From Pseudanabaena sp. PCC 6802 (GTDB lineage Bacteria; Cyanobacteriota; Cyanobacteriia; Pseudanabaenales; Pseudanabaenaceae), in the NCBI RefSeq assembly GCF_000332175.1, contig NZ_KB235914.1:2724868-2788867 (forward strand): a stretch of DNA of 64,000 nucleotides. Reading direction: 5' to 3'. The number at the start of each line of letters is the position of its first letter. Position 1 is the stretch's first letter. The position numbers and the translations under genes are program-made. Shown here one piece after another: positions 1 to 15,974 of this stretch. The notes under the pieces were generated by a model. The model ran no database searches. It worked only from the letters and a program-made list of their open reading frames with translations, and was not told the origin of the DNA.

Positions 1-969
1 GCAAACTTCGCTGTCGTACTGAAGGGATGGAATGGAAAACTTCCTGAAGGTGCAGAGCGTATTGAGTCACCTACCCCCTACGTTTGGATTATCGGACGTA
101 CCCAAACTAACGGGCCAAAAGACTACGAAGCAGTCCACAAGATACAAGACGGCTATATCGTCACACCGCTATCGCAGTGGGGACAGAAGTCCGAACCGGT
201 GAAGGCGGTCATTGACCCCAGCGTGGATATGAAAACACCGCCACTGGTGCAGGTTAACACCATGACTGCTGCCAATTACTTCAGCTACGGTGCAGAATTG
301 ATGAAGCTCCACCCACCACATATTACTGACTGGTCAATGGTTTCGCGATTGAGTCGCATCGGTATCATTCTGGGTGAAAGTTTTAACTTTGACAATGCTT
401 CTGCCACAGTTAAGGCGGCTCTAGATCGCGCTGTCGCAGACGGACTCCAATTAATGGAGGAGAAGTTCACAACATTGTCGCAGGTTGTGAATGGCTGGCA
501 GATGAATACCGATACGATGGGTGTTTATGGCAACTATTACCTGAAGCGTGCGATCGTGGCTATGATCGGCCTCGGTGCCAATCAGCCCCAAGATGCAATC
601 TATCCGTTGAATGTAGGCGATGCTGACGGGAAACCGATGGATGGAGCGAACAAGTACGTGCTGCACTTCCAGAAAGACGAACTGCCACCCGTAGAGGCAT
701 TCTGGTCGGTCACCATGTACGATGCCGAAGGTTTCCAGGTTGCCAACCAACTCGACCGCTTTGCGATCGGCGATCGCGACGACTTGAAATACAACGCCGA
801 CGGTTCGCTCGATATCTACATCCAGCACGAGTCTCCCGGCGCAGACAAGGAATCCAATTGGTTGCCGTCTCCCGCTCAGGATATGTTGGGCGTGACCATG
901 CGTCTATACGCACCTAAAGCACAGGTGCTGGATGGGCGCTGGGTTCCCCCCGTAATACGGCAGTCTTAA
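1..969 (+). CDS. DUF1254/DUF1214 family protein, 3' part (start lies outside the window)
   Basis: The reading frame is open from base 1 to the stop at 967-969, so this is a gene entering from the left; an internal GTG near 199 is not the true start. The fragment contains the end of a DUF1254 domain followed by a DUF1214 domain. Visible DUF1214 hallmarks are FWSVTMYD, then NQLDRFAIGDR, then DGSLDIYIQHESPG, NWLPSP and RLYAP, ending in a W-x-PP motif. Proteins of this family are secreted or periplasmic and of unknown biochemical function; the signal peptide would be in the missing 5' part. The next gene on the same strand is about 185 bases away, so co-transcription is not obvious. Confidence 0.85.
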   Translation, partial: ANFAVVLKGWNGKLPEGAERIESPTPYVWIIGRTQTNGPKDYEAVHKIQDGYIVTPLSQWGQKSEPVKAVIDPSVDMKTPPLVQVNTMTAANYFSYGAELMKLHPPHITDWSMVSRLSRIGIILGESFNFDNASATVKAALDRAVADGLQLMEEKFTTLSQVVNGWQMNTDTMGVYGNYYLKRAIVAMIGLGANQPQDAIYPLNVGDADGKPMDGANKYVLHFQKDELPPVEAFWSVTMYDAEGFQVANQLDRFAIGDRDDLKYNADGSLDIYIQHESPGADKESNWLPSPAQDMLGVTMRLYAPKAQVLDGRWVPPVIRQS

Positions 970-3445: not shown

Positions 3446-5209
3446 ATGTTTTCCAAAAATCATAAGGGCAGGTTTGAGGCTATGGGGGTAGATTTGCAAA
3501 AAACTAACGAATTGAAGCAGCGATCGAGCGCCATAAAGCGAACTAACCCCTTTACAACCCACAATTTTTTTGGGGGTGTCGCGTTCGGGGTGCTTGCTTC
3601 CACTCTTATGACCGCTGCGCCAGTTCGAGCCGCTGAGAAATTATTTTTGACATTCGGCCCGTTTAAATTATCCCTAAGAGTTAGTTCTTTAGAAACCTTT
3701 GCGAAAGAAGGTAAAATCGATCGAGATTTAGCATTCTATTTAGGTAGAGCGACCCCGGAACAGCAAGCTCTATTTCGTAAAGCCCTCACGGAACCGATAA
3801 AAGCTAGCCCCGTACTATTATCTCGCCTCTTTTACTCGGGAATTGGAGAAGCTATCCTGACTCGCATTGGCAAAGGAGTTACGTTGGAGGGTGGGCTGAA
3901 TGGGAAATACGGCATGCGAGCCGCGATAGTGCTGGCTGCTTTCGAGCCTGAAGGTTTGACCATGCTGAATTTCTTTAAAAAGTTCCCAACCAATATCCAA
4001 TTCCAAGGAGAACACATATTGGCAGCTACGGAATTCGCTGAGAAATTAGTGAGAGCAACCGAACTGCTTACTGTGGAAATGAAGCAATTGTCCTCCCGCG
4101 AGGCAGCTTCTGAGCCTTCCACGGATTTCGCAAAAATGCCAGATCTCCGCCAACCTGGCTCGTTTGGAGTGCAGCCCAAACAAACTTGGGTTCTCAAGGA
4201 TAGCAGCCGCGATCGCCAGTTTTATGTCGATGTCTATAAACCTCAGAGCTGGCGCTCTGGGAAAACTCCTGTCGTGGTGTTCTCGCATGGATTTTCTTCT
4301 AGACCAGAGGATTTTGGTGACGCGGCAGAACATTTGGCTTCCTATGGCTATGTCGTGGTTCTTCCCCAGCATCCCGGCAGCGATATCAGTCGGATGAAGG
4401 CATTCCTGCAAGGGTTTCACAGAAACACCTTTGATGTGAATGAATTTATTAACCGTCCCAAGGATATCAGCTACACGATTGACGAACTCGAACGTCGCAA
4501 TCAATCGGAATTTCAAGGACAGCTCAATTTAGAATCTGTAGGTGTAGCGGGTCACTCCTTTGGCGGCTCTACGGCTTTCGCGATCGCTGGTGCCGTGATT
4601 GATTTCGAGAATTTGGAAAATGAATGCAATCGGCCATTCGGCGGTCTCAACACTTCTCTGCTACTTCAGTGTCGGGCTCTAGAGTTACCCCGCCAAATCT
4701 ACGATCTCCGCGATCGACGTGTTAGCGCTGTCTTTGTCGTAAACCCTGTGAATAGCAGTATCTTCGGACGTTCGGGACTGAGTAAGATTCAAATCCCCCT
4801 ATTTATAGCAGGAGGAAATTACGACCCCGCCACGCCCTTTGTCCTCGAACAGGGTCGCGTTTTCCCCTGGTTGAAGACATCCGATAAATATTTGGCAATG
4901 GTAGAAGGACAGGCTCATGTTGACTTCTCCCAGTTGGATGCTGGCATAAAGTATACAATTGAGTCCTTTGACAAGATCGCCCTACCAAGTCCGGATCTAA
5001 TTCATAACTATAGGGATAGCCTGGCGGCGGCATTTTTTGGGACTTACCTCGATAAGCAAGAAGATTACAAACCCTATCTCCAGTCTGCCTATGCCGCATA
5101 TCTCAGTCAAGGGCAGGAATTTAAACTCTTTCTAATTAGCGCTCCTTCGGCAGACAAGTTAGGTCAAACCATTGATGACTTTAGGCGTAAGTACAACTTT
5201 AACTCTTAA
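3446..5209 (+). CDS. Secreted alpha/beta hydrolase with N-terminal DUF1400 domain
   Basis: 587 residues. After a long positively charged leader and a hydrophobic signal segment (cleavage probably after APVRAA) comes a DUF1400 region (about residues 65-200), a domain typical of cyanobacterial hydrolases, then a platelet-activating-factor-acetylhydrolase/dienelactone-hydrolase-like fold. The nucleophile elbow GHSFGG places Ser371. A plausible acid is Asp460 (NYDPATP) and the base His491 (GQAHVDF). HGFSSRPEDF supplies the oxyanion loop. Together these predict a periplasmic or surface esterase or lipase; the substrate is unknown. A second in-frame ATG at 3482 is an alternative start and would shorten the leader by 12 residues. 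Confidence 0.85.
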   Translation: MFSKNHKGRFEAMGVDLQKTNELKQRSSAIKRTNPFTTHNFFGGVAFGVLASTLMTAAPVRAAEKLFLTFGPFKLSLRVSSLETFAKEGKIDRDLAFYLGRATPEQQALFRKALTEPIKASPVLLSRLFYSGIGEAILTRIGKGVTLEGGLNGKYGMRAAIVLAAFEPEGLTMLNFFKKFPTNIQFQGEHILAATEFAEKLVRATELLTVEMKQLSSREAASEPSTDFAKMPDLRQPGSFGVQPKQTWVLKDSSRDRQFYVDVYKPQSWRSGKTPVVVFSHGFSSRPEDFGDAAEHLASYGYVVVLPQHPGSDISRMKAFLQGFHRNTFDVNEFINRPKDISYTIDELERRNQSEFQGQLNLESVGVAGHSFGGSTAFAIAGAVIDFENLENECNRPFGGLNTSLLLQCRALELPRQIYDLRDRRVSAVFVVNPVNSSIFGRSGLSKIQIPLFIAGGNYDPATPFVLEQGRVFPWLKTSDKYLAMVEGQAHVDFSQLDAGIKYTIESFDKIALPSPDLIHNYRDSLAAAFFGTYLDKQEDYKPYLQSAYAAYLSQGQEFKLFLISAPSADKLGQTIDDFRRKYNFNS

Positions 5210-5265: not shown

Positions 5266-6576
5266 ATGCCTAAATCATTACAGCAGCTTGCCCTATTTAC
5301 TACTCTATCTCAAATTGCTTGGAGCCTTCCTTGCGTACTGGCGCAAAGTGCTTTGGCCAACCCACTCGAAGCGACATCTCCTACTAACTTTTTACAGAAG
5401 CCTCCCCAAGATAGCACAATCTTAAGCGATCGCCGTTCAGAAGTTCCTGATTCTATTGCTCCTGATGAGAGATTCGATCCTACGCTCGATTTCGAGGAGT
5501 TGCTAGCAGACTCCTTCGCGGAAATGCCTGTAGCAGATAATCCCTATCTCTCCTGTCCCACTTCGACTTCTACGAACGATTCGATCGCATCTCAACCATT
5601 GCCAACTAGAGAAAGAGAAATTACTGAAAATACGTCTCCTCCTATTTCCTGCGTCGCGAACCTCACAAGCGTGCTGACATCTGTAGATTCTCTCAAGACG
5701 GAACGAGGCTTGGCGACACCTACATTCGCATCTCCAATTACTCAAGAGAACGCTCAAGGGAATGCGTTAGATAGCCCCAAGCCCTCTCCAAGCCCGACTA
5801 CTAGCGATACAGCAGAGACATCCATTACGGATAAATCAGCCCCTGCCGATACGGAAAACCTGGCGAAAGCGGCGCAGAACCCAATTGCCAGCCTGATTAG
5901 CCTACCGTTTCAGTATAATTTTAACTTTGGTATTGGTCCCCATGACCGCACGCAGTACATTTTGAACGTCCAGCCAGTGATTCCAACCTCATTAAGTGAT
6001 GACTGGTTGTTGGTTTCGCGCATTATTACGCCAATCCTGCTCCAGCCGATAGGGACTGATGCTTCTACATTTGGGCTGGGGGATTTGAACCCCACCTTCT
6101 TTTTCGTCCCGAAGGTTCCTGGCAATCTCAACTGGGGAATAGGTCCGGTGCTTTTACTGCCTACCGCAACCGATCGCTCCTTAGGGACTGGTAAATGGGG
6201 TATTGGACCGTCTGCTGTTGTAGTTTGGAGTCCGGGGCAATGGGTGATTGGCGCATTGGCAAATCAAATCTGGTCGGTTGCGGGCGATTCCAGCCGCCCC
6301 GATGTCAGCCAGTTTTTGTTTCAGCCATTCATCAATTACAACCTGCCAGATGGTTGGTATCTCTCATTCGCCCCCATTATTACCGCAAATTGGAACGCTT
6401 CTGCAGGTAACCAATGGACAGTTCCCTTAGGGGGCGGCTTTGGGAGGGTATTTCGGATTGACAAGCAACCGGTGAACGTAAGTTTAGTAGCATTCTGGAA
6501 TGCCATCAAACCTGAATTTGGTGCAGATTGGCAGATTCGCTTCCAATTTACACTCCTCTTTCCTGGTGGGGGGTAG
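5266..6576 (+). CDS. Secreted protein: variable N-terminal half plus neuromedin-U/porin-like beta-barrel
   Basis: 436 residues. Signal peptide (cleavage near ALA-N, about residue 28), then a low-complexity Ser/Thr/Pro-rich region to about residue 210, then a beta-rich C-terminal domain beginning ASLISLPFQYNFNFG. The repeated amphipathic strands, the GIGPVLLLPTATD element and the terminal phenylalanine-containing strand (QIRFQFTLLF) match outer-membrane transporter-like proteins that automatic pipelines call 'neuromedin U'. The N-terminal half (motifs FEELLADS, NPYLSCPTSTS, TSPPISCVA) is closely shared with the next gene, whose barrel is different. Probably an outer-membrane protein; substrate unknown. 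Confidence 0.7.
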   Translation: MPKSLQQLALFTTLSQIAWSLPCVLAQSALANPLEATSPTNFLQKPPQDSTILSDRRSEVPDSIAPDERFDPTLDFEELLADSFAEMPVADNPYLSCPTSTSTNDSIASQPLPTREREITENTSPPISCVANLTSVLTSVDSLKTERGLATPTFASPITQENAQGNALDSPKPSPSPTTSDTAETSITDKSAPADTENLAKAAQNPIASLISLPFQYNFNFGIGPHDRTQYILNVQPVIPTSLSDDWLLVSRIITPILLQPIGTDASTFGLGDLNPTFFFVPKVPGNLNWGIGPVLLLPTATDRSLGTGKWGIGPSAVVVWSPGQWVIGALANQIWSVAGDSSRPDVSQFLFQPFINYNLPDGWYLSFAPIITANWNASAGNQWTVPLGGGFGRVFRIDKQPVNVSLVAFWNAIKPEFGADWQIRFQFTLLFPGGG

Positions 6577-6670
6577 TATATTCATAAGGTTATGGCGTAG
6601 AATATTAACGGAAGACAAAGGGGATAGGTTTACACTAGCACCAACAAAATTTATTGAGGAGACACAGGTC

Positions 6671-7999
6671 ATGTTTAAGCGCTTGCAGCATCTTTTCTTA
6701 TCAATCCCATTGTCTCAAATCGCCTTGGGCTGCCTGCTGACAACTAGTGCGATCGCCAACCCAATTCCAACCACATCTCCGCACGATCGAGTAAATACTT
6801 CTCAGGAAACTCCTAACGTCAGCGATCGCCTGGCTCTAGAAGTTCCTAATTCTATTGCTCCCGATCGAAGCGTTGATGCTCCTCTCAATTTCGAGGAGTT
6901 GCTAGCAGACTCGCTCGCAGATATGCCCATAGCGGAAAATCCCTATCTTACATGCCCAACTTCAACCTCCGCGCATGATTCAAACACATCACAGCCATTA
7001 CCGATTAGAGAAGGAGAAGCTACAGACAATACGTCTCCTCCTATTTCGTGCGTCGCTCACCTCACAAGCGCACCGACATCTTTAGAGTCTCTCAAGAAAG
7101 AGCAAGACACGACATTACCTGCATTCGCATCTCCGGTTGCCCAGGAGAATACCCAGAAAAGCCCCCAAGAAAACCCCCAAGAAAACCCCCAAGATAGCCT
7201 GCCAAAATCCTCTCCAACCCAGACCGCCAGCGATGTGGCAAAACCTGCTGACGACAGCAATCGATGGCACGTTAAATTTCAACCCTACTTTATCCTTCCC
7301 TTCAGTACCTACGGTACGACTACAATCGGGAATCGCTCCGTCGACTTCAATCTCAGTCTCGGTCAAGTACTTAGCAATCTAGACTTTGCTATCTACGGTC
7401 GCCTCGAAACATGGAACAATAACTTAGGCTTTATTGTTGACGCATCTTATCAAAAACTAGGTAGAGTTGCTAGCACTAGCATTCGCCAGACTACGCTTGC
7501 TGCAAGTGCCAGTTTTAGCCAGGGCATCTACGATTTTGCAGTCAGCTATCACTTTGGCGATCCCGCTCAATACAGCTTGCCCGACAAACCATCGAATAGG
7601 TCTTTCCCCCTATACTGGTTCGAACCAATTCTGGGCGTTCGCCTCAACAGTCTAGATGCCAGTATTGATGCTAGTTTAGACTTTGGACGATTTGATCGGA
7701 ATTTTCAGAGAACGGTTAGTAGCGGACGAACCTGGCTCGAACCCACGATTGGAGCAAAATTAGGAGTGCAGGTTTCCGATCCCGTCATCCTATGGTTGCG
7801 CGGCGATATTTCTGGTTTTGGTCTAGCAGGCAATCCGAATCTAAGCTGGAACGTTATAGCTGGAGCAGACTGGTGGATTTCTCCCACCACTTCGCTTCAG
7901 ATTGCTTACCGATTTTATGAAATCAATTATGGCAATAATGACCTCAGATTCAAATTAGGATATAATGGACCATTTATCGGCGTGACGTTCAATTTTTAA
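6671..7999 (+). CDS. Secreted protein sharing its N-terminal half with the upstream gene but ending in a different beta-barrel
   Basis: 442 residues from the ATG at 6671, chosen because GAGGAGA lies about ten bases upstream and a signal peptide (MFKRLQ, hydrophobic core, AIA-N) follows directly. Residues to about 190 parallel the previous protein motif for motif (SDR, IAPD, NFEELLADSLADMP, NPYLTCPTSTS, TSPPISCVA, FASPVAQEN), then comes a QENPQEN repeat. The C-terminal domain (WHVKFQPYFILPFSTYGTTT onward) is an outer-membrane barrel, about 230 residues with a terminal FIGVTFNF strand, not alignable by eye to the barrel of the previous gene. Likely outer-membrane located. Confidence 0.75.
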   Translation: MFKRLQHLFLSIPLSQIALGCLLTTSAIANPIPTTSPHDRVNTSQETPNVSDRLALEVPNSIAPDRSVDAPLNFEELLADSLADMPIAENPYLTCPTSTSAHDSNTSQPLPIREGEATDNTSPPISCVAHLTSAPTSLESLKKEQDTTLPAFASPVAQENTQKSPQENPQENPQDSLPKSSPTQTASDVAKPADDSNRWHVKFQPYFILPFSTYGTTTIGNRSVDFNLSLGQVLSNLDFAIYGRLETWNNNLGFIVDASYQKLGRVASTSIRQTTLAASASFSQGIYDFAVSYHFGDPAQYSLPDKPSNRSFPLYWFEPILGVRLNSLDASIDASLDFGRFDRNFQRTVSSGRTWLEPTIGAKLGVQVSDPVILWLRGDISGFGLAGNPNLSWNVIAGADWWISPTTSLQIAYRFYEINYGNNDLRFKLGYNGPFIGVTFNF

Positions 8000-8154: not shown

Positions 8155-8946
8155 ATGAAAGAAACCCTCATGAAAATTCAAACCTCCCGCATTTTATTGC
8201 TTTTATTTACTGCTTGTATGGCAACGATCGCGATTCCCCTGAGAACTTTGGCCCAAAGCGCACCGGAATCCCCTATCTTCCCTAACGAGGAAGCAGAAGC
8301 GATCCTGAAAAAAGCTTGCGATACATTAAGAACAAAGCAGGCTTTTACCGTTGATGTCGATATTACTTACGATAACGTACTGGATTCCGGCGAGAAAGTT
8401 CAGTACAGTGCCTTTCAGCAACTATCGGTAAAACGCCCTAACCAGCTCAGGGCAGACTACACTGGTGACGAACGCCACAGCAGTTTCTACTACGATGGCA
8501 AAACTTTCTCGTTACTAGCAAAGAAAGCGAATTTGTATGCCACCAGACCCGCACCTGCCACCATCGACGCGGCGATCGCTGAAATCGAAGAAAAGTATGA
8601 CGTTACTATTCCTCTCTCTAAATTGGTGGTTAGCGATCCTTGCAGTGAGATCGCTCCCAATATCAAGAAGTCTACATACATTGGGTTCGATATGGTAAAT
8701 AGAGTTCCCAGCTATCACTTCCTATTTACTGGCGAGGAAAAGGACTTCCAGGTTTGGATTAGCGACGAAGCCGAACCCGTACCTCAAAAACTTGTGATTA
8801 CATACAAAGAGCTGCCTGGTGCGCCGCAGTATACGGCAATTTTTTCTAATTGGAATTTCAAACCGCAGATCTCTGCCAACACATTTAGCTTTACTCCACC
8901 CGCAGGCACTGGCAAAATCGAATTCCTTCCTTCCGAACTTAAGTAA
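8155..8946 (+). CDS. DUF2092 family periplasmic protein
   Basis: 263 residues; the ATG at 8170 (MKIQTS) is an alternative start that gives a cleaner signal peptide with cleavage after TLAQS. The mature domain has the DUF2092 pattern: an N-terminal helix ending in ACDTLRTKQAFTVDVDITYD, a strand-turn with KRPNQLRADYTGDERHSSFYYDGKTFSL, a central YATRPAPATIDAAI helix and C-terminal strands with VPQKLVITYKELPGAPQYTA and NTFSFTPPAG. The fold is the half-barrel seen in LolA and RseB, which bind hydrophobic ligands, so lipid or lipoprotein binding in the periplasm is a reasonable inference. The next gene starts 28 bases downstream, suggesting an operon. Confidence 0.85.
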   Translation: MKETLMKIQTSRILLLLFTACMATIAIPLRTLAQSAPESPIFPNEEAEAILKKACDTLRTKQAFTVDVDITYDNVLDSGEKVQYSAFQQLSVKRPNQLRADYTGDERHSSFYYDGKTFSLLAKKANLYATRPAPATIDAAIAEIEEKYDVTIPLSKLVVSDPCSEIAPNIKKSTYIGFDMVNRVPSYHFLFTGEEKDFQVWISDEAEPVPQKLVITYKELPGAPQYTAIFSNWNFKPQISANTFSFTPPAGTGKIEFLPSELK

Positions 8947-8974: not shown

Positions 8975-9721
8975 ATGAAATTTTCTACACGTTACACCTT
9001 TTTCACTTTGCTTTTAGTCCTTTTATCTGCCAGCCTGCTTCCTCTAGATGCATTTGCCCAACGCCGTGGCGGCAACGTTAACAGAGCAGGTGCTTCTCCG
9101 CGCGTCAACAGCAACGTCAACCTAAGGGATAGAGGGAATATCAATCGCCCCAATGCGAATCGTCCTAATATTAATCGCCCCAACAACAATATCAATCGCC
9201 CCAATGTGAATGTCAATCGCCCTAACAACAATATCAATCGCCCCAATGTGAATGTCAATCGCCCCAATACCAATATCAACCGCCCCAATGTGAATGTCAA
9301 TCGCCCTAACATCAACGTTAATCGCCCCAATGTGAATGTCAATCGTCCCAATGTCAATATCAACACTGGTTGGCGTGGGGGTGGTTGGTATGGCGGCGGC
9401 TACCGCACCCCACCAGGTTGGGGATTGGCTACATTTGCCACTGGCCTAGCGATCGGAACAGCGATTAATAATCGCCCACCCTATGCCGTCCCCGTAGTCG
9501 TGGGCGGGAATAACTTTATCTACTCAGATGGGGTCTTTTTGCAACCTAGAGGCAACTCTTACGTCGTTATTGCGCCTCCGATTGGTGCGGTTGTGCCTTC
9601 TATACCTGATGGTTGCACGGTAACTAACACTGATGGAGTAATATATTACAACTGTAGCGGCGTTATCTATCAGCCCTTCTACCAGGGTAACAACCTCGTC
9701 TATAGAGTTGTCAGGTTCTAA
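8975..9721 (+). CDS. Secreted Asn-Arg-Pro-repeat protein with C-terminal DUF6515-like domain
   Basis: 248 residues. Signal peptide to about residue 28 (DAFA-Q), then a basic repeat region (residues about 45-130) built from 6- and 8-residue units of the type INRPNVNV, then a Gly/Tyr-rich GGGWYGGGYR linker and a C-terminal domain with NNFIYSDGVFLQP, SYVVIAPPIGAVVPSIPDGC and YYNCSGVIYQP. The last part fits the DUF6515 pattern (YYxDGVYY and VVxPPxGxxVxxLP). Two cysteines in the domain may pair. It sits directly behind the DUF2092 gene and ahead of an MscS channel. Its positive repeat could contact nucleic acid, polysaccharide or peptidoglycan; that is speculation. Confidence 0.75.
   Translation: MKFSTRYTFFTLLLVLLSASLLPLDAFAQRRGGNVNRAGASPRVNSNVNLRDRGNINRPNANRPNINRPNNNINRPNVNVNRPNNNINRPNVNVNRPNTNINRPNVNVNRPNINVNRPNVNVNRPNVNINTGWRGGGWYGGGYRTPPGWGLATFATGLAIGTAINNRPPYAVPVVVGGNNFIYSDGVFLQPRGNSYVVIAPPIGAVVPSIPDGCTVTNTDGVIYYNCSGVIYQPFYQGNNLVYRVVRF
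9137..9363 (+). repeat. Coding tandem repeat (AATCGCCCCAATGTGAATGTC-type units)
   Basis: In-frame repeats inside the Asn-Arg-Pro-repeat gene. Units of 18 and 24 bases alternate with core AATCGCCCCAA; synonymous differences (CCC/CCT, AAC/AAT) show that the units are not all recent copies. Expected to vary in number between strains. Confidence 0.85.
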
Positions 9722-9854: not shown

Positions 9855-11693
9855 ATGGGGCAAGTTTTTTCTCGGCAGGTAAGACGCTTTCTGAGCAAGG
9901 TATTCCTAGGTTTAATCATAGTTTTTTGGATCGATGCTGGGAGCGCGATCGCTTGGAGTCCAATTGCGATAAGCCAGCTTCCATCATTACCGCAGTCGAA
10001 CTCATCACAACTCCCAAACGGTGTCACGAGACAGGGGTTACTGGAAGCGACGGATGTGAAATTGGGTGGGAAGGCGATCTTCAAAATTGCCTCTCCCGCA
10101 GTTTTCAATCGTAGCGAATTAGGCGATCGGATTCCAGTTGAGGTGAGAGCGCGTCAAATCGAAGCTAACCTAGAGCAAATCCTGAGATCCGATCGCGCTT
10201 CAGATTCATCTGAGGAACGCTCTACCCCTCTCGATCCAGAGACAATTCGGGTATATATTGAAATTTTGAATCGTCAGCCGCTATTGTACGTTAAGGATGC
10301 GGGTCTAGTAGAGCCGAGAGTCTTATTAACGGTTACAGATACGGATGCTCAGTACCATGGTACAACTAAAGAAATCCTGGCAGGGCGTTGGCAAAAAATA
10401 CTAGAGAAAGAATTACGACAGGCTCTGGAATTCCGCAAGCCAGAGGCGTTAAAGCAGCAAATTAACGATGCAATCAAGATCGCGATCGCCACGGTCGCTG
10501 CCAGTATTTTGCTATTAGCGATCTGGAAGGTATTAGCATGGCGCGAAAAAGCGTTAAAGCAATATCAGGCAAGTCAAGCGATCGCACCATTTCCCAGTGA
10601 TGAGGTGCTTTCCGAGCCAGTCGTTCGCGAACATAAACCTCAATTGCTTGAGATTTTGCGACAACAATTCATTCATCAATTCAGCATTCAACGGCGCTTG
10701 CAGATTGTTAACCTACTTCAATGGTTGGTATTCTGGGCAATCGCGTTTGTTTGGGTGGCTGGGATTGCGGCCACCTTATATCAGTTCCCGCTCACCCGCC
10801 CTTTTGCTACTGGATTTGCGTCAACCCCCATCTTAATCTTGGCGGCCTGGTTTATCACTGGTCTCATAAACCGTTCGATCGGTTTGGCGATCGATCGATT
10901 CATCAAAACCTGGGAAAAAAATACCCTGACACTGGAAAACTCCCAACGGCGATCGCAGCGTCTGGCAACAACCGTTAGTGCTTTGAAGGGTTTGATAACG
11001 GTCTTCATCTATTGCTTTGTGATTGTTTGGGTTTTGCAATTTCTCAATATCGCGCCAGTATCCTTATTAGCATTCGGAACGCTGCTGGCTTTAGCAATCT
11101 CTTTTGGAGTACAGAATGTAATCAAAGATTTAGTCAATGGCATCTTGATTCTGATGGAAGATCAGTATGCCGTTGGCGACTATATTGTTGTTGGTTCGGC
11201 ATCTGGAGTTGTGGAAAATGTCAACCTCCGCATTACCCAAATTCGTTCGGCGGATGGGCGATTAATCACGCTACCCAATAGCTCGATCGCTCAGGTTGAC
11301 AACTTGACCCGCCTCTGGTCGCGGAGTGATTTTGTCGTGGAGGTTGCCTACAATACCGATGTCGATAAGGCGCTAGCGATCGTGATGCAAGAGGCAACGC
11401 AGTTAGCAAACGATCCAGAATGGAAGTCAACCATTCTAGATGTAGGCGAAGTTTTTGGCATAGAGAGAATTTCGCACTCCGGCATTGAAATCAAAATATG
11501 GATTAAGACGCTTCCCCTCAAGCAGTTTGTTGTGGCGCGAGAATTGCGCCGCCGCCTCAAAATCGCCTTCGATCGCCACGGCATTCACATCGGAATTCCC
11601 CAACAGATGCTGTCAGGTTCATTCCGCGATGCGATCGGCGATTTTATCCCGCATAACTCCGATCTCTCGCCAGATAACCCTCCAAAAACTTAA
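9855..11693 (+). CDS. MscS-family mechanosensitive channel with extended periplasmic N-terminus
   Basis: 612 residues. Signal-like N-terminus, a periplasmic region of about 170 residues (including RIPVEVRARQIEANLEQIL), a first helix near residues 205-228, further helices around 285-310, 325-345 and 380-405, then the pore helix and beta domain signature: LLALAISFGVQNVIKDLVNG followed by LMEDQYAVGDYIVV and ITLPNSSIAQVDNLTR. The remaining C-terminus is the cytoplasmic alpha/beta domain. The channel should open on membrane tension to release osmolytes after hypo-osmotic shock. A GAGG lies about ten bases before the ATG. The stop codon overlaps the convergent next gene by four bases. Confidence 0.9.
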   Translation: MGQVFSRQVRRFLSKVFLGLIIVFWIDAGSAIAWSPIAISQLPSLPQSNSSQLPNGVTRQGLLEATDVKLGGKAIFKIASPAVFNRSELGDRIPVEVRARQIEANLEQILRSDRASDSSEERSTPLDPETIRVYIEILNRQPLLYVKDAGLVEPRVLLTVTDTDAQYHGTTKEILAGRWQKILEKELRQALEFRKPEALKQQINDAIKIAIATVAASILLLAIWKVLAWREKALKQYQASQAIAPFPSDEVLSEPVVREHKPQLLEILRQQFIHQFSIQRRLQIVNLLQWLVFWAIAFVWVAGIAATLYQFPLTRPFATGFASTPILILAAWFITGLINRSIGLAIDRFIKTWEKNTLTLENSQRRSQRLATTVSALKGLITVFIYCFVIVWVLQFLNIAPVSLLAFGTLLALAISFGVQNVIKDLVNGILILMEDQYAVGDYIVVGSASGVVENVNLRITQIRSADGRLITLPNSSIAQVDNLTRLWSRSDFVVEVAYNTDVDKALAIVMQEATQLANDPEWKSTILDVGEVFGIERISHSGIEIKIWIKTLPLKQFVVARELRRRLKIAFDRHGIHIGIPQQMLSGSFRDAIGDFIPHNSDLSPDNPPKT

Positions 11694-12376: not shown

Positions 12377-14038
12377 ATGAAGGTGACAAAAACGATTGAA
12401 GTATTCGTGGCGTTGGCTCTGGCAGTATTTCTATGCCTGATTGCTGCCCCACTGGCATTCCCCCAAACCAGTCCATCGTCGCAACCGCCTACAGGAGCCG
12501 TTGTGACTCTGGACGACAAACCACTGTTCGCGATCGAGAAAAAAGCTCTGTCGTCATCTCCAGAAAAGCGAGCGCAGACAATGAAGGAGCGCATTACCAC
12601 ATTTGCCGACGATCGCTCGATCTCGATCGATTCCCTGTGGACGAAGAATATCGAAGACTCCATCCTGGTTGGTGCAGGTGACAAGATTCTGATTTACGTG
12701 TCCGATGAAGATGCCAAGGTAGTAGGTAAATCGCGACAGGAGTTAGCTAATGAGTACTCGCAGATTATCAGAGAAGCCGTACGTCAATACCGAGAAGACC
12801 GAAGTACGCGCTCTTTATGGCTGGCGGCAATCTATGCTGTAGGAACAACAATTGCCCTGATCGGCGCGATCGTTATTTGGAGGTGGAAAAGAGTTACGTT
12901 TCGCATCAATGCCTGGCTTAATTCCGAGCGCCATAATCGCATTCCCAGCATTCAATTTCAAAATTTCGAGCTGCTGTCCGCCGATCGCATCACTGATTTA
13001 TGCATCTGGCTAGTGGGGCTAATCCGCTCGATTGCCCTGTTGACACTGCTGTATGTTTATTTCTCCTTTGTCTTTAGCTTGTTCCCTGCGACGAAGCACG
13101 TGGGCGCAACACTATTTAGCTATGTCGACAGTAGATTGCAAGCTGCCTGGAATGCTTTCTTGGCATATCTTCCCAGCCTATTAACCATCGTCCTTGTCGC
13201 CTTCATAACTTACCACGTTCTCCGTTTCTTAAAGTTTATTTTCACGGCGATCGGCAAGCAGCAACTGACTGTGCCGGGATTTTATCCCGAGTGGGCAGCA
13301 CCAACCTACAAGCTGCTGACCTATTTAATTATTGCCATGGCTTTTGCCGTTATTTTTCCCTACATCCCAGGCTCCAACTCTGCCTCCTTTCAGGGGATAT
13401 CAATATTTTTAGGCGTTTTGATCTCAATCGGTTCGTCTACTGCTGTTGCTAACATCGTCGCTGGTATTATTACAATCTACACGAGAGCATTTCAGATCGG
13501 CGATCGCGTCAAAATTGGCGATATCGTAGGGGATGTTGAAGCAAAACTCCTGCTGGTAACGCGCATCCGCACGGTGAATAATGTCTTAGTGACGTTGCCA
13601 AACTCCACATTATTAACCAGCAATATTGTCAACTACAGCGCCTTAATTCGAGATGACCATGCACCGCTCATTCTCCATACCACAGTCACGCTTGGCTACG
13701 ATGCCCCGTGGCGCAAAATCCATGAGACTCTGATTGCAGCGGCTCGGGCGACAACGCATATTCTAGACGAACCGTCTCCGTTTGTGCTGCAAACTGCTCT
13801 TAATGATTTCTACGTCAGCTACGAACTAAAAGCCTATACCAATCATCCTTCCAAGATGGCCAGCATCTACTCCGAACTCCATCAAAATATTCAAGACAAG
13901 TGCAACGAAGTGGGAATTGAAATCTGCTCGCCGCATTACTCGGCACTTCGAGATGGCAATCATAACACCATACCTGAGACTTATCTCCCGGAGGGATATC
14001 AAGCTCCTGGCTTTAAAATTGATAACCGATCTGATTGA
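12377..14038 (+). CDS. MscS-family mechanosensitive channel (second, divergent from the first)
   Basis: 553 residues. N-terminal signal segment with QTSPSSQPPTG following, a periplasmic region of about 120 residues, then helices around residues 147-170, 205-235, 255-285 and 310-330, and the pore-helix/beta-domain signature FLGVLISIGSSTAVANIVAG followed by YTRAFQIGDRVKIGDIVGDV and VLVTLPNSTLLTSNIVNYS. The C-terminal cytoplasmic domain contains HTTVTLGYDAPWRKIHE and ends in a polar tail. It has the same role as the gene at 9855 but low similarity to it outside the core, so the two are not a recent duplication. A short divergent region separates it from the preceding minus-strand gene. Confidence 0.9.
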   Translation: MKVTKTIEVFVALALAVFLCLIAAPLAFPQTSPSSQPPTGAVVTLDDKPLFAIEKKALSSSPEKRAQTMKERITTFADDRSISIDSLWTKNIEDSILVGAGDKILIYVSDEDAKVVGKSRQELANEYSQIIREAVRQYREDRSTRSLWLAAIYAVGTTIALIGAIVIWRWKRVTFRINAWLNSERHNRIPSIQFQNFELLSADRITDLCIWLVGLIRSIALLTLLYVYFSFVFSLFPATKHVGATLFSYVDSRLQAAWNAFLAYLPSLLTIVLVAFITYHVLRFLKFIFTAIGKQQLTVPGFYPEWAAPTYKLLTYLIIAMAFAVIFPYIPGSNSASFQGISIFLGVLISIGSSTAVANIVAGIITIYTRAFQIGDRVKIGDIVGDVEAKLLLVTRIRTVNNVLVTLPNSTLLTSNIVNYSALIRDDHAPLILHTTVTLGYDAPWRKIHETLIAAARATTHILDEPSPFVLQTALNDFYVSYELKAYTNHPSKMASIYSELHQNIQDKCNEVGIEICSPHYSALRDGNHNTIPETYLPEGYQAPGFKIDNRSD

Positions 14039-14060: not shown

Positions 14061-15974
14061 CTAGAAATTCATGAGTAATGAGAGTTGCAGAAAATACCAG
14101 GGGCCGGGATTATTGCCCACCACTTTCTGAATGGCCGCACCGGGAAACGCTACGGAACCACTGGCATACAACAGAAAATTGCGAGATAGATTATATCGAC
14201 CTGTTAGTGTAAGCTCTTGTCCAATCTCGGACGATTCGAGAAAAGAGAGTGCTTGCGCACCACCCAAATTGTTTAGCTCTGCCGCAGACAGATGAATGTA
14301 TTGCAGAGATAGATCGAATTGTTGAGATGGACGCAATCGCAACACAACTTGATGGGTAATTAAATTGGAGTTTTGGTAAAGTTTGACTAGATTTGCACCC
14401 TGAATCCAGGTATCCGGACTTCCTCCAGAAAGCAATGGATCGAACCGCTCAAAGGTCGAAGTATTGGGATTGTCACCGCTGAAATAGGCATAGCGATAAC
14501 TCAGGGTAGGAGTCCAAGGAAGATCCTGGATGGTGTAGCCAATTTGTCCCCAAGCGGCATTTGCAGCCATATCAAAGCTGTCGTTCCACTGATGAGCGTA
14601 TTCAGCTTGAAGCCAGAGTCCATCCAGGCCAAATAGATTGCTAAATCGAACGCGGGGATAAATGACATTTAGCCCTTTCTTGGGAAAGACGCTCGTCGAG
14701 GTGAAATAGGAAGAATCAGATTCAGGGACGTGAATATAGCTCAATCCTAGTTGCACAGATCGATTATTGTCATATTCTAAATTGGCTCCCACAAACTTAG
14801 TTCGGCTATCAATTAAGGGCAACTCGTTGGGGTCGAGATAGAAACCTTCAAGGCGAAGATCGTTCCAGCGAATGCGACCAATTACAGTATTCTCAAAGGC
14901 AGTGCGTGGGTTTGATAGAATCGTGGCGCGATCGCCCCCATTCCCCGCTCCGTTCGCAAATAACATGCCGTTACTAATCCGGTAATCCTGCCGTCCCGCC
15001 GACAGGTTAATCCCAAAGCGGGAATTGTCGGTTCGATAGCCGTAAAGTACGCCACCATAAAGATCTTCAATGCCGCTGAAGATGCGATTGTTCGATTCAA
15101 ACAAATCGGGCTGAAGCGTTGTAGAAACTATATTGGTGGCACTACCGTAGACATAAAGGGGGAGGGTATCGATCTGAGTAATGCCCGCAACGCCGAATTC
15201 TAAGTAGCTGTCCAACCAGCTATAGGTGCCTGCGCGAGCTGGATCGCGAGCAAGGGGATTGCCCTGGGTGAAGAGAGCGGCGTTGCCGAACCAGGTGTTG
15301 CTGCTGCTAAAGTTGGACAATCCACCTCGCAGAATGGCAACGGCTGTGGCGCGATCGTTTGTATAAAGATTCGGAAATTCTCGCAAATCACCTGTGACGA
15401 GAATACCTGTTTCACGGGGCTTAGTGACTGCCTCAGCCTTCAATCTCACTGAGAGAACGACCACTACCTCACCGGGAATTTGCACCTCATAGAAAGCATT
15501 CTGCGCGGCTTTCACAAATGCAAGCTGCTCGACCCGCTGCAGGCCTGCATTCAGAAAAAGCCGATTGTAGTTATCTCCTGACCGTACTGCAAATGCTTGT
15601 GCAATCTGCTCTTGAAGTTTCTGATTGCGATCGGGATCGGGGGTGGGGTTTTCGAGATAAATCCGAACTTCTGAAATACGCTCCCCATTGAGCAGGCCAG
15701 GATTCAGCAAAAAGCCCCCCGTTGGTACGGCGGTAGCCGGAATTTCGGTTAAGGTTTGGGTTGTGGCGGGAAGTTCATCGATCGCCTCAGCAGGGACAGA
15801 TTCTGAGGAACGTTCTTGAGTCAGCGGTTCAGTAGTCAGCGGTTCAGTTAGAATGTCTGAGACGATAGTGATTTCGTCAGATACCATTTCGTCGGCATAT
15901 GCGCGATGACATAGCATCGCAGGAGTAAATGTCAGGCAAAGCAACGATAAAAAGGTAGAACAAAAAGGCTTCAT
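14061..15974 (-). CDS. Large outer-membrane beta-barrel protein, alginate-export/porin-like
   Basis: 637 residues. Signal peptide (cleavage near AYA-D), an acidic Thr/Glu/Pro-rich linker with TEPLTTEPLTQ repeats, a small alpha/beta region (about residues 95-185, RISEVRIYLENPTPDPDRN) that looks like a POTRA or secretin-type periplasmic domain, then a barrel of about 440 residues with alternating aromatic strands (DLYGGVLYGYRTDNSRFG, WLQAEYAHQWNDSF, YFLQLSLLMNF at the C-terminus). The terminal Phe and the strand pattern place it in the outer membrane; the barrel resembles alginate-export family proteins. A GAGG lies six bases ahead of the ATG. Cargo unknown. Confidence 0.75.
   Translation of the reverse strand: MKPFCSTFLSLLCLTFTPAMLCHRAYADEMVSDEITIVSDILTEPLTTEPLTQERSSESVPAEAIDELPATTQTLTEIPATAVPTGGFLLNPGLLNGERISEVRIYLENPTPDPDRNQKLQEQIAQAFAVRSGDNYNRLFLNAGLQRVEQLAFVKAAQNAFYEVQIPGEVVVVLSVRLKAEAVTKPRETGILVTGDLREFPNLYTNDRATAVAILRGGLSNFSSSNTWFGNAALFTQGNPLARDPARAGTYSWLDSYLEFGVAGITQIDTLPLYVYGSATNIVSTTLQPDLFESNNRIFSGIEDLYGGVLYGYRTDNSRFGINLSAGRQDYRISNGMLFANGAGNGGDRATILSNPRTAFENTVIGRIRWNDLRLEGFYLDPNELPLIDSRTKFVGANLEYDNNRSVQLGLSYIHVPESDSSYFTSTSVFPKKGLNVIYPRVRFSNLFGLDGLWLQAEYAHQWNDSFDMAANAAWGQIGYTIQDLPWTPTLSYRYAYFSGDNPNTSTFERFDPLLSGGSPDTWIQGANLVKLYQNSNLITHQVVLRLRPSQQFDLSLQYIHLSAAELNNLGGAQALSFLESSEIGQELTLTGRYNLSRNFLLYASGSVAFPGAAIQKVVGNNPGPWYFLQLSLLMNF

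Follow-up and report, generated by a model that had tools for sequence, protein, structure and literature searches.

Two adjacent genes of Pseudanabaena sp. PCC 6802 encode proteins that share their N-terminal half and end in unrelated beta-barrels. The mosaic formed by this shared half is real and largely explained, most likely as the disordered tail of two partner barrels homogenised by gene conversion. The genes lie in a window of 64,000 nucleotides (the whole stretch of DNA that was analysed), from whose first letter all positions below are counted. Gene A (5266..6576; 436 aa) encodes a signal peptide and a predicted disordered linker, short helix, and 12-stranded barrel of the COG4313/FapF type, and gene B (6671..7999; 442 aa) a signal peptide and a predicted disordered linker and barrel of ∼10 strands. 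Both genes, with all of their parts described below, are on the forward strand. We corrected the start of B from the upstream ATG at 6500 in the ORF list to the ATG at 6671, from which the protein begins MFKRLQHLF... and aligns with the MPKSLQQLA... of A; the coordinates given in an earlier reading of the sequence alone (here, the sequence-only reading) were otherwise right. The signal peptide of A (5266..5358) ends in ...QSALA and is closer to that of its ortholog in a relative (A′) than to that of B (6671..6757, ending in ...TSAIA).

The signal peptide and linker are what A and B have in common. In a blastp comparison, 97 of 165 residues were identical (59%; E value, 9e-53), confined to the N-terminal half, and the DNA was 77.8% identical over 329 bp, a likeness also visible as a 300-nt direct repeat with a spacing of 1399 bp. 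The two linkers aligned with a score of 406, compared with 55 ± 9 for shuffled sequences. Both consist of 37 to 38% Ser, Thr, and Pro and contain no Trp. The common N-terminal half described in the sequence-only reading was thus confirmed, and the sequence blocks and two cysteines that it named are present in both proteins (C97 and C129 in A, C95 and C127 in B). Across the core of the shared tract, dN/dS was ∼0.3, a sign that the tail is under some constraint. There was no third copy of the shared half in the same genome, a search for upstream DNA common to A and B found none, and promoter and terminator matches were at chance level.

The barrels, in contrast, showed no likeness to each other by sequence (score of 39, compared with 36 ± 6 for shuffles) or by profile-profile comparison (probability, 0.4%), and their predicted structures matched different solved structures, in agreement with the earlier proposal that they are nonhomologous. 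Barrel homology was rejected at the sequence and profile levels; a probability of 99.9% in the whole-protein profile comparison came only through the shared tail. Chains of COG4313 or FapF were absent among the 50 structural matches listed for B, an absence that is no proof in itself.

The barrel of A (5890..6564; residues ∼209 to 433) was modeled by AlphaFold2 with pLDDT values of >90. Its highest structural match was FapF (5o65), which has the same barrel fold (Z, 21.8 over 229 residues), followed by the COG4313 channel Pput2725 (4rl8), a 12-stranded barrel with a segment before strand 1 (Z, 20.9 over 227 residues), and then by a group of matches at Z values of ∼18. Gene A is therefore predicted to have the 12-stranded barrel of the COG4313 Pput2725 fold, a group that includes Pput2725, SphA, and TcpY and corresponds to PF13557 (Phenol_MetA_deg). 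The protein itself matched no Pfam family at an E value of ≤1, and 5 of 37 relatives matched PF13557 (best E value, 3.4e-6). The substrates of A are probably small or hydrophobic. A short helix was predicted at residues 192 to 204 (5839..5877; ENLAKAAQ...), directly before strand 1; it lies outside the shared half, and relatives in the barrel family conserve it. The lumen of Pput2725 is blocked by an N-terminal segment (PMC4493636); the tail before the barrel of A is far longer than the one there. The helical plug of FapF comes after a coiled coil and an unstructured linker (PMC5557850). The model of A resembles this arrangement in its disordered linker and short helix ahead of the barrel. Unlike FapF, A has no predicted N-terminal trimeric coiled coil and no helix in residues 31 to 191 (a part covered by only one homolog), and the identified neighbors (DUF1400, DUF2092, DUF6515, and MscS proteins) gave no sign of an amyloid operon. 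By analogy with the COG4313 channels and FapF, the helix of A may plug or gate the pore.

The barrel of B (7262..7996) was modeled by AlphaFold2 with pLDDT values of mostly 75 to 95. In shape it best matched the Legionella Dot/Icm porin I (9nh1; Z, 19.2), followed by OpcA (Z, 18.5) and the omptins (Z, 15 to 17). Sequence identity to these ten-stranded barrels was ∼10%, and we claim no protease or adhesin function for B. The match to PF13505 (OMP_b-brl) was weak (14.6 bits, below the curated cutoff of 28.7), and neither A nor B matched the SLH domain of SLH-type cyanobacterial porins at an E value of ≤1.

To resolve the history of the shared half, we compared the pair with its orthologs A′ and B′ in Pseudanabaena sp. 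ULC068bin1, which occur in the same order and, like the pair in the window, lie downstream of DUF1400 hydrolase genes. At the DNA level, A matched A′ only in the signal peptide (nucleotides [nt] 1 to 99; 71%) and from nt 586 to the end (79%), B could be aligned with B′ along most of the gene, and the match between A and B was restricted to nt 160 to 485 of A (78%). This tract of A (5425..5750), the putative recipient, had no DNA match in A′ and was 78% identical to positions 6821 to 7149; the latter, the putative donor tract in B, is orthologous to B′ at ∼67% DNA identity. In the core (A residues 53 to 162), A and B agreed against B′ at 66 sites, B and B′ against A at 26, and A and B′ against B at 19 (66 versus 26 and 19: P values of 3.7e-5 and 3e-7, respectively). 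In the end of the linker (A residues 163 to 203), the corresponding counts were 3, 18, and 10 (core versus linker end: P = 1.6e-6). It is important to note that these counts rest on four sequences, since a single relative carries the orthologous pair, and that the alignment of low-complexity linkers is uncertain. Within the core, A is closer to B than B is to B′, and the signal peptide, linker end, and barrel of A follow A′. This is the signature of conversion, in which copies from the same genome are closer than orthologs inside the tract and the flanks follow orthology. A fast-evolving relative as the cause of the closeness of A and B was rejected because the barrels of the relative did not evolve faster in relative-rate comparisons. 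Given this and the site counts, the core linker of A was most likely replaced by sequence from B once the two lineages had split, and because A′ has no comparable core tract, B was taken as the donor. Also in favor of this reading, a C/S-A-x-D-L box (compare SCVAHL of B), chosen after looking at the sequences, occurred in 9 of 22 B-type extensions of other cyanobacterial families (0.8 in shuffles) but in hardly any A-type extensions (2 of 34; 1.0 in shuffles). Synonymous divergence in the core was 0.62 between A and B and 0.67 to 1.1 between species; as the former is below, but not far below, the latter, the copying would be old.

The shared N-terminus appears to have an earlier layer as well. 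A′ and B′ are related over the signal peptide and ∼30 residues (score of 74, compared with 24.8 ± 4.9 for shuffles), and therefore an older copying or duplication, which would have given both genes these related parts, came first. We consider it likely that gene conversion from B to A then took place on top of this older N-terminus, after the split from the sampled Pseudanabaena relative. Non-reciprocal recombination between the neighbors would have copied ∼330 bp of the B tail into A. A's own shorter linker would have been replaced, except for its final stretch, and the signal peptide and barrel of A would have been retained. In each protein, the signal peptide would now lead into ∼165 residues of flexible, Ser/Thr/Pro-rich tail, followed by its own, different barrel, and the tail would act as a spacer or tether, lying extended in the periplasm. 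The mosaic identity, the tract bounded within the gene, and a same-strand donor at a distance of ∼1.4 kb resemble intragenomic conversion between neighboring paralogous segments. Unlike in such conversion, the C-terminal domains here are nonhomologous, and A and B have nothing beyond the secretion signal and tail in common. The linker of B also holds a 12-nt tandem repeat (7140..7199; PQEN units) at its low-complexity tail end, a likely site of slippage.

The shared half was found in 2 of 38 genomes of the family, namely, the genome studied here and Pseudanabaena sp. ULC068bin1 (G020). Besides the pair itself, it was found in none of 386 sampled cyanobacterial genomes (a draw that evidently did not include G020) and, apart from the same Pseudanabaena, in none of 80 named barrel-A loci; by these searches, it is a lineage-private sequence. 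The linkers of A and B had no Pfam or NCBIfam match, and the shared half was rejected as a known domain on this ground. In the AlphaFold2 models, the linker of A had pLDDT values of <50 and contained neither helix nor strand, and that of B had values of mostly <50 with essentially no secondary structure, although low values could reflect the thin alignment in this part (one homolog). The shared half is therefore not a new or widespread adaptor domain but a Ser/Thr/Pro-rich sequence predicted to be unstructured. The sequence-only reading had interpreted it as a common periplasmic adaptor placed in front of different pores by partial duplication or domain swap. Its view of an N-terminal part ahead of two different outer membrane barrels was supported, as was an origin by copying between genes (the core of A being closer to B than B is to B′). 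The adaptor was not: the search across cyanobacteria that it had proposed recovered the sequence almost nowhere but here, in this pair and the orthologs in one relative, and at other cyanobacterial two-gene loci the tails of A and B lacked a convincing likeness.

Barrel A has relatives in many phyla. Of 373 cyanobacterial genomes sampled, 19 were A positive, and each of these also had B, a co-occurrence whose P value is inflated by the relatedness of the genomes, and the two genes were within 10 kb of each other in 11 of the 17 genomes measured. Genes for DUF1254/DUF1214, DUF2092, MscS-type, and DUF1400 proteins recurred in the 80 barrel-A loci. In the window, A and B are likewise surrounded by DUF1214 (199..969), DUF1400 alpha/beta hydrolase (3446..5209; upstream of the pair and in the same relative place in G020), DUF2092 (8155..8946; downstream), and MscS-type channel (9855..11693) genes, with a second MscS-type channel gene at 12377..14038 (all on the forward strand). 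A similar neighborhood was found on Rhizobium binae plasmid p2 (L075), where an A-type barrel lies beside a B-type barrel with DUF2092, arylsulfatase, and MscS genes. The two barrels are thus old genomic partners.

Among named loci, the part before the A barrel had a median length of 37.5 aa outside the cyanobacteria (approximately a signal peptide) and 89 aa within them, with the longest cyanobacterial examples reaching 123 to 201 aa; these lengths depend on start codons picked by a crude score. Cyanobacterial copies of A carry long, fast-changing N-terminal extensions that are mostly missing in other phyla. In other cyanobacterial loci with both genes, the tails of A and B were not convincingly alike, with a weak likeness in two (L132 and L133). 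A motif chosen after looking at the sequences, [ILV][AST]Q, was present in 24 of 34 A and 16 of 22 B extensions (∼5 in shuffles) and, in a cruder count, in 6 of 20 A/B and 13 of 116 other secreted ORFs. It was rejected as a common feature of the extensions because it is nonspecific; many unrelated TonB-receptor candidates also showed it in their N-termini on visual inspection.

We weighed several other explanations for the likeness of the tails. The whole tail could stem from one duplication, with A′ having lost most of it and B′ having diverged, and the related signal peptides and adjoining residues of A′ and B′ are in keeping with such an origin. However, the likeness of A and B in the core exceeds that of B and B′ (66 versus 26 sites) and would require a threefold faster relative, yet the barrel rates are equal; we regard this explanation as improbable. 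That the tail is instead an undescribed folded periplasmic domain with a disulfide, mounted on two pores, seems very improbable. The two cysteines and several blocks are conserved between A and B, and some B-type extensions elsewhere hold C...C-A-x-D-L. Against a folded domain, the 386 genomes gave no match, the linker matched no Pfam or NCBIfam entry, no confident structure was predicted, and, by composition, the linkers of A′ and B′ contain no cysteine.

The tail could also be a docking tag through which the two barrels attach to one and the same partner in the periplasm, with selection, with or without conversion, keeping the tails alike. The frequent genomic partnership of the barrels, the constraint suggested by dN/dS, and the several blocks strongly conserved between A and B fit this proposal. 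Nevertheless, we consider it unlikely, as the tails at other two-gene loci are not convincingly alike, A′ lacks most of the tail, and no partner is known. A broader version, to which we give a little less credence, is that the genes belong to one two-barrel outer membrane system, extending from cyanobacteria to Rhizobium beside the DUF1254/DUF1214, DUF2092, and MscS-type genes, with long disordered periplasmic tails in the cyanobacteria and, here, one docking sequence for one periplasmic partner kept by gene conversion.

Under gene conversion from B to A, the pair would be a clear instance from nature of a secretion signal and a disordered tail moving, on their own, between neighbors with unrelated folded domains, the tail being exchangeable between genes and the pore left untouched. 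It would thus serve as an example of floppy protein parts spreading between adjacent genes. Further, the pair suggests that two outer membrane barrels, neither of which passes a curated family cutoff here, form a conserved pairing, and it draws attention to cyanobacterial N-terminal extensions of testable purpose.

Several minor observations were made alongside these results. Short motifs, either [ILV]-A-Q or A-x-D-L, recur immediately ahead of the first folded domain in A, in B, and in unrelated cyanobacterial TonB-receptor candidates (L160 to L189). Close cyanobacterial relatives of barrel B (L046, L047, L049, L051, and L054) have an apparently helical (coiled-coil-like) insertion of 200 to 370 residues in one inter-strand loop, which had no Pfam match above cutoff in the 3 relatives scanned. 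Elsewhere in the window, positions 8975 to 9721 encode the DUF6515 protein, which has a run of RPN-type repeats at its N-terminus, and positions 14061 to 15974 on the reverse strand encode a 637-aa protein with a match to Alginate_exp (PF13372) in its C-terminal half.
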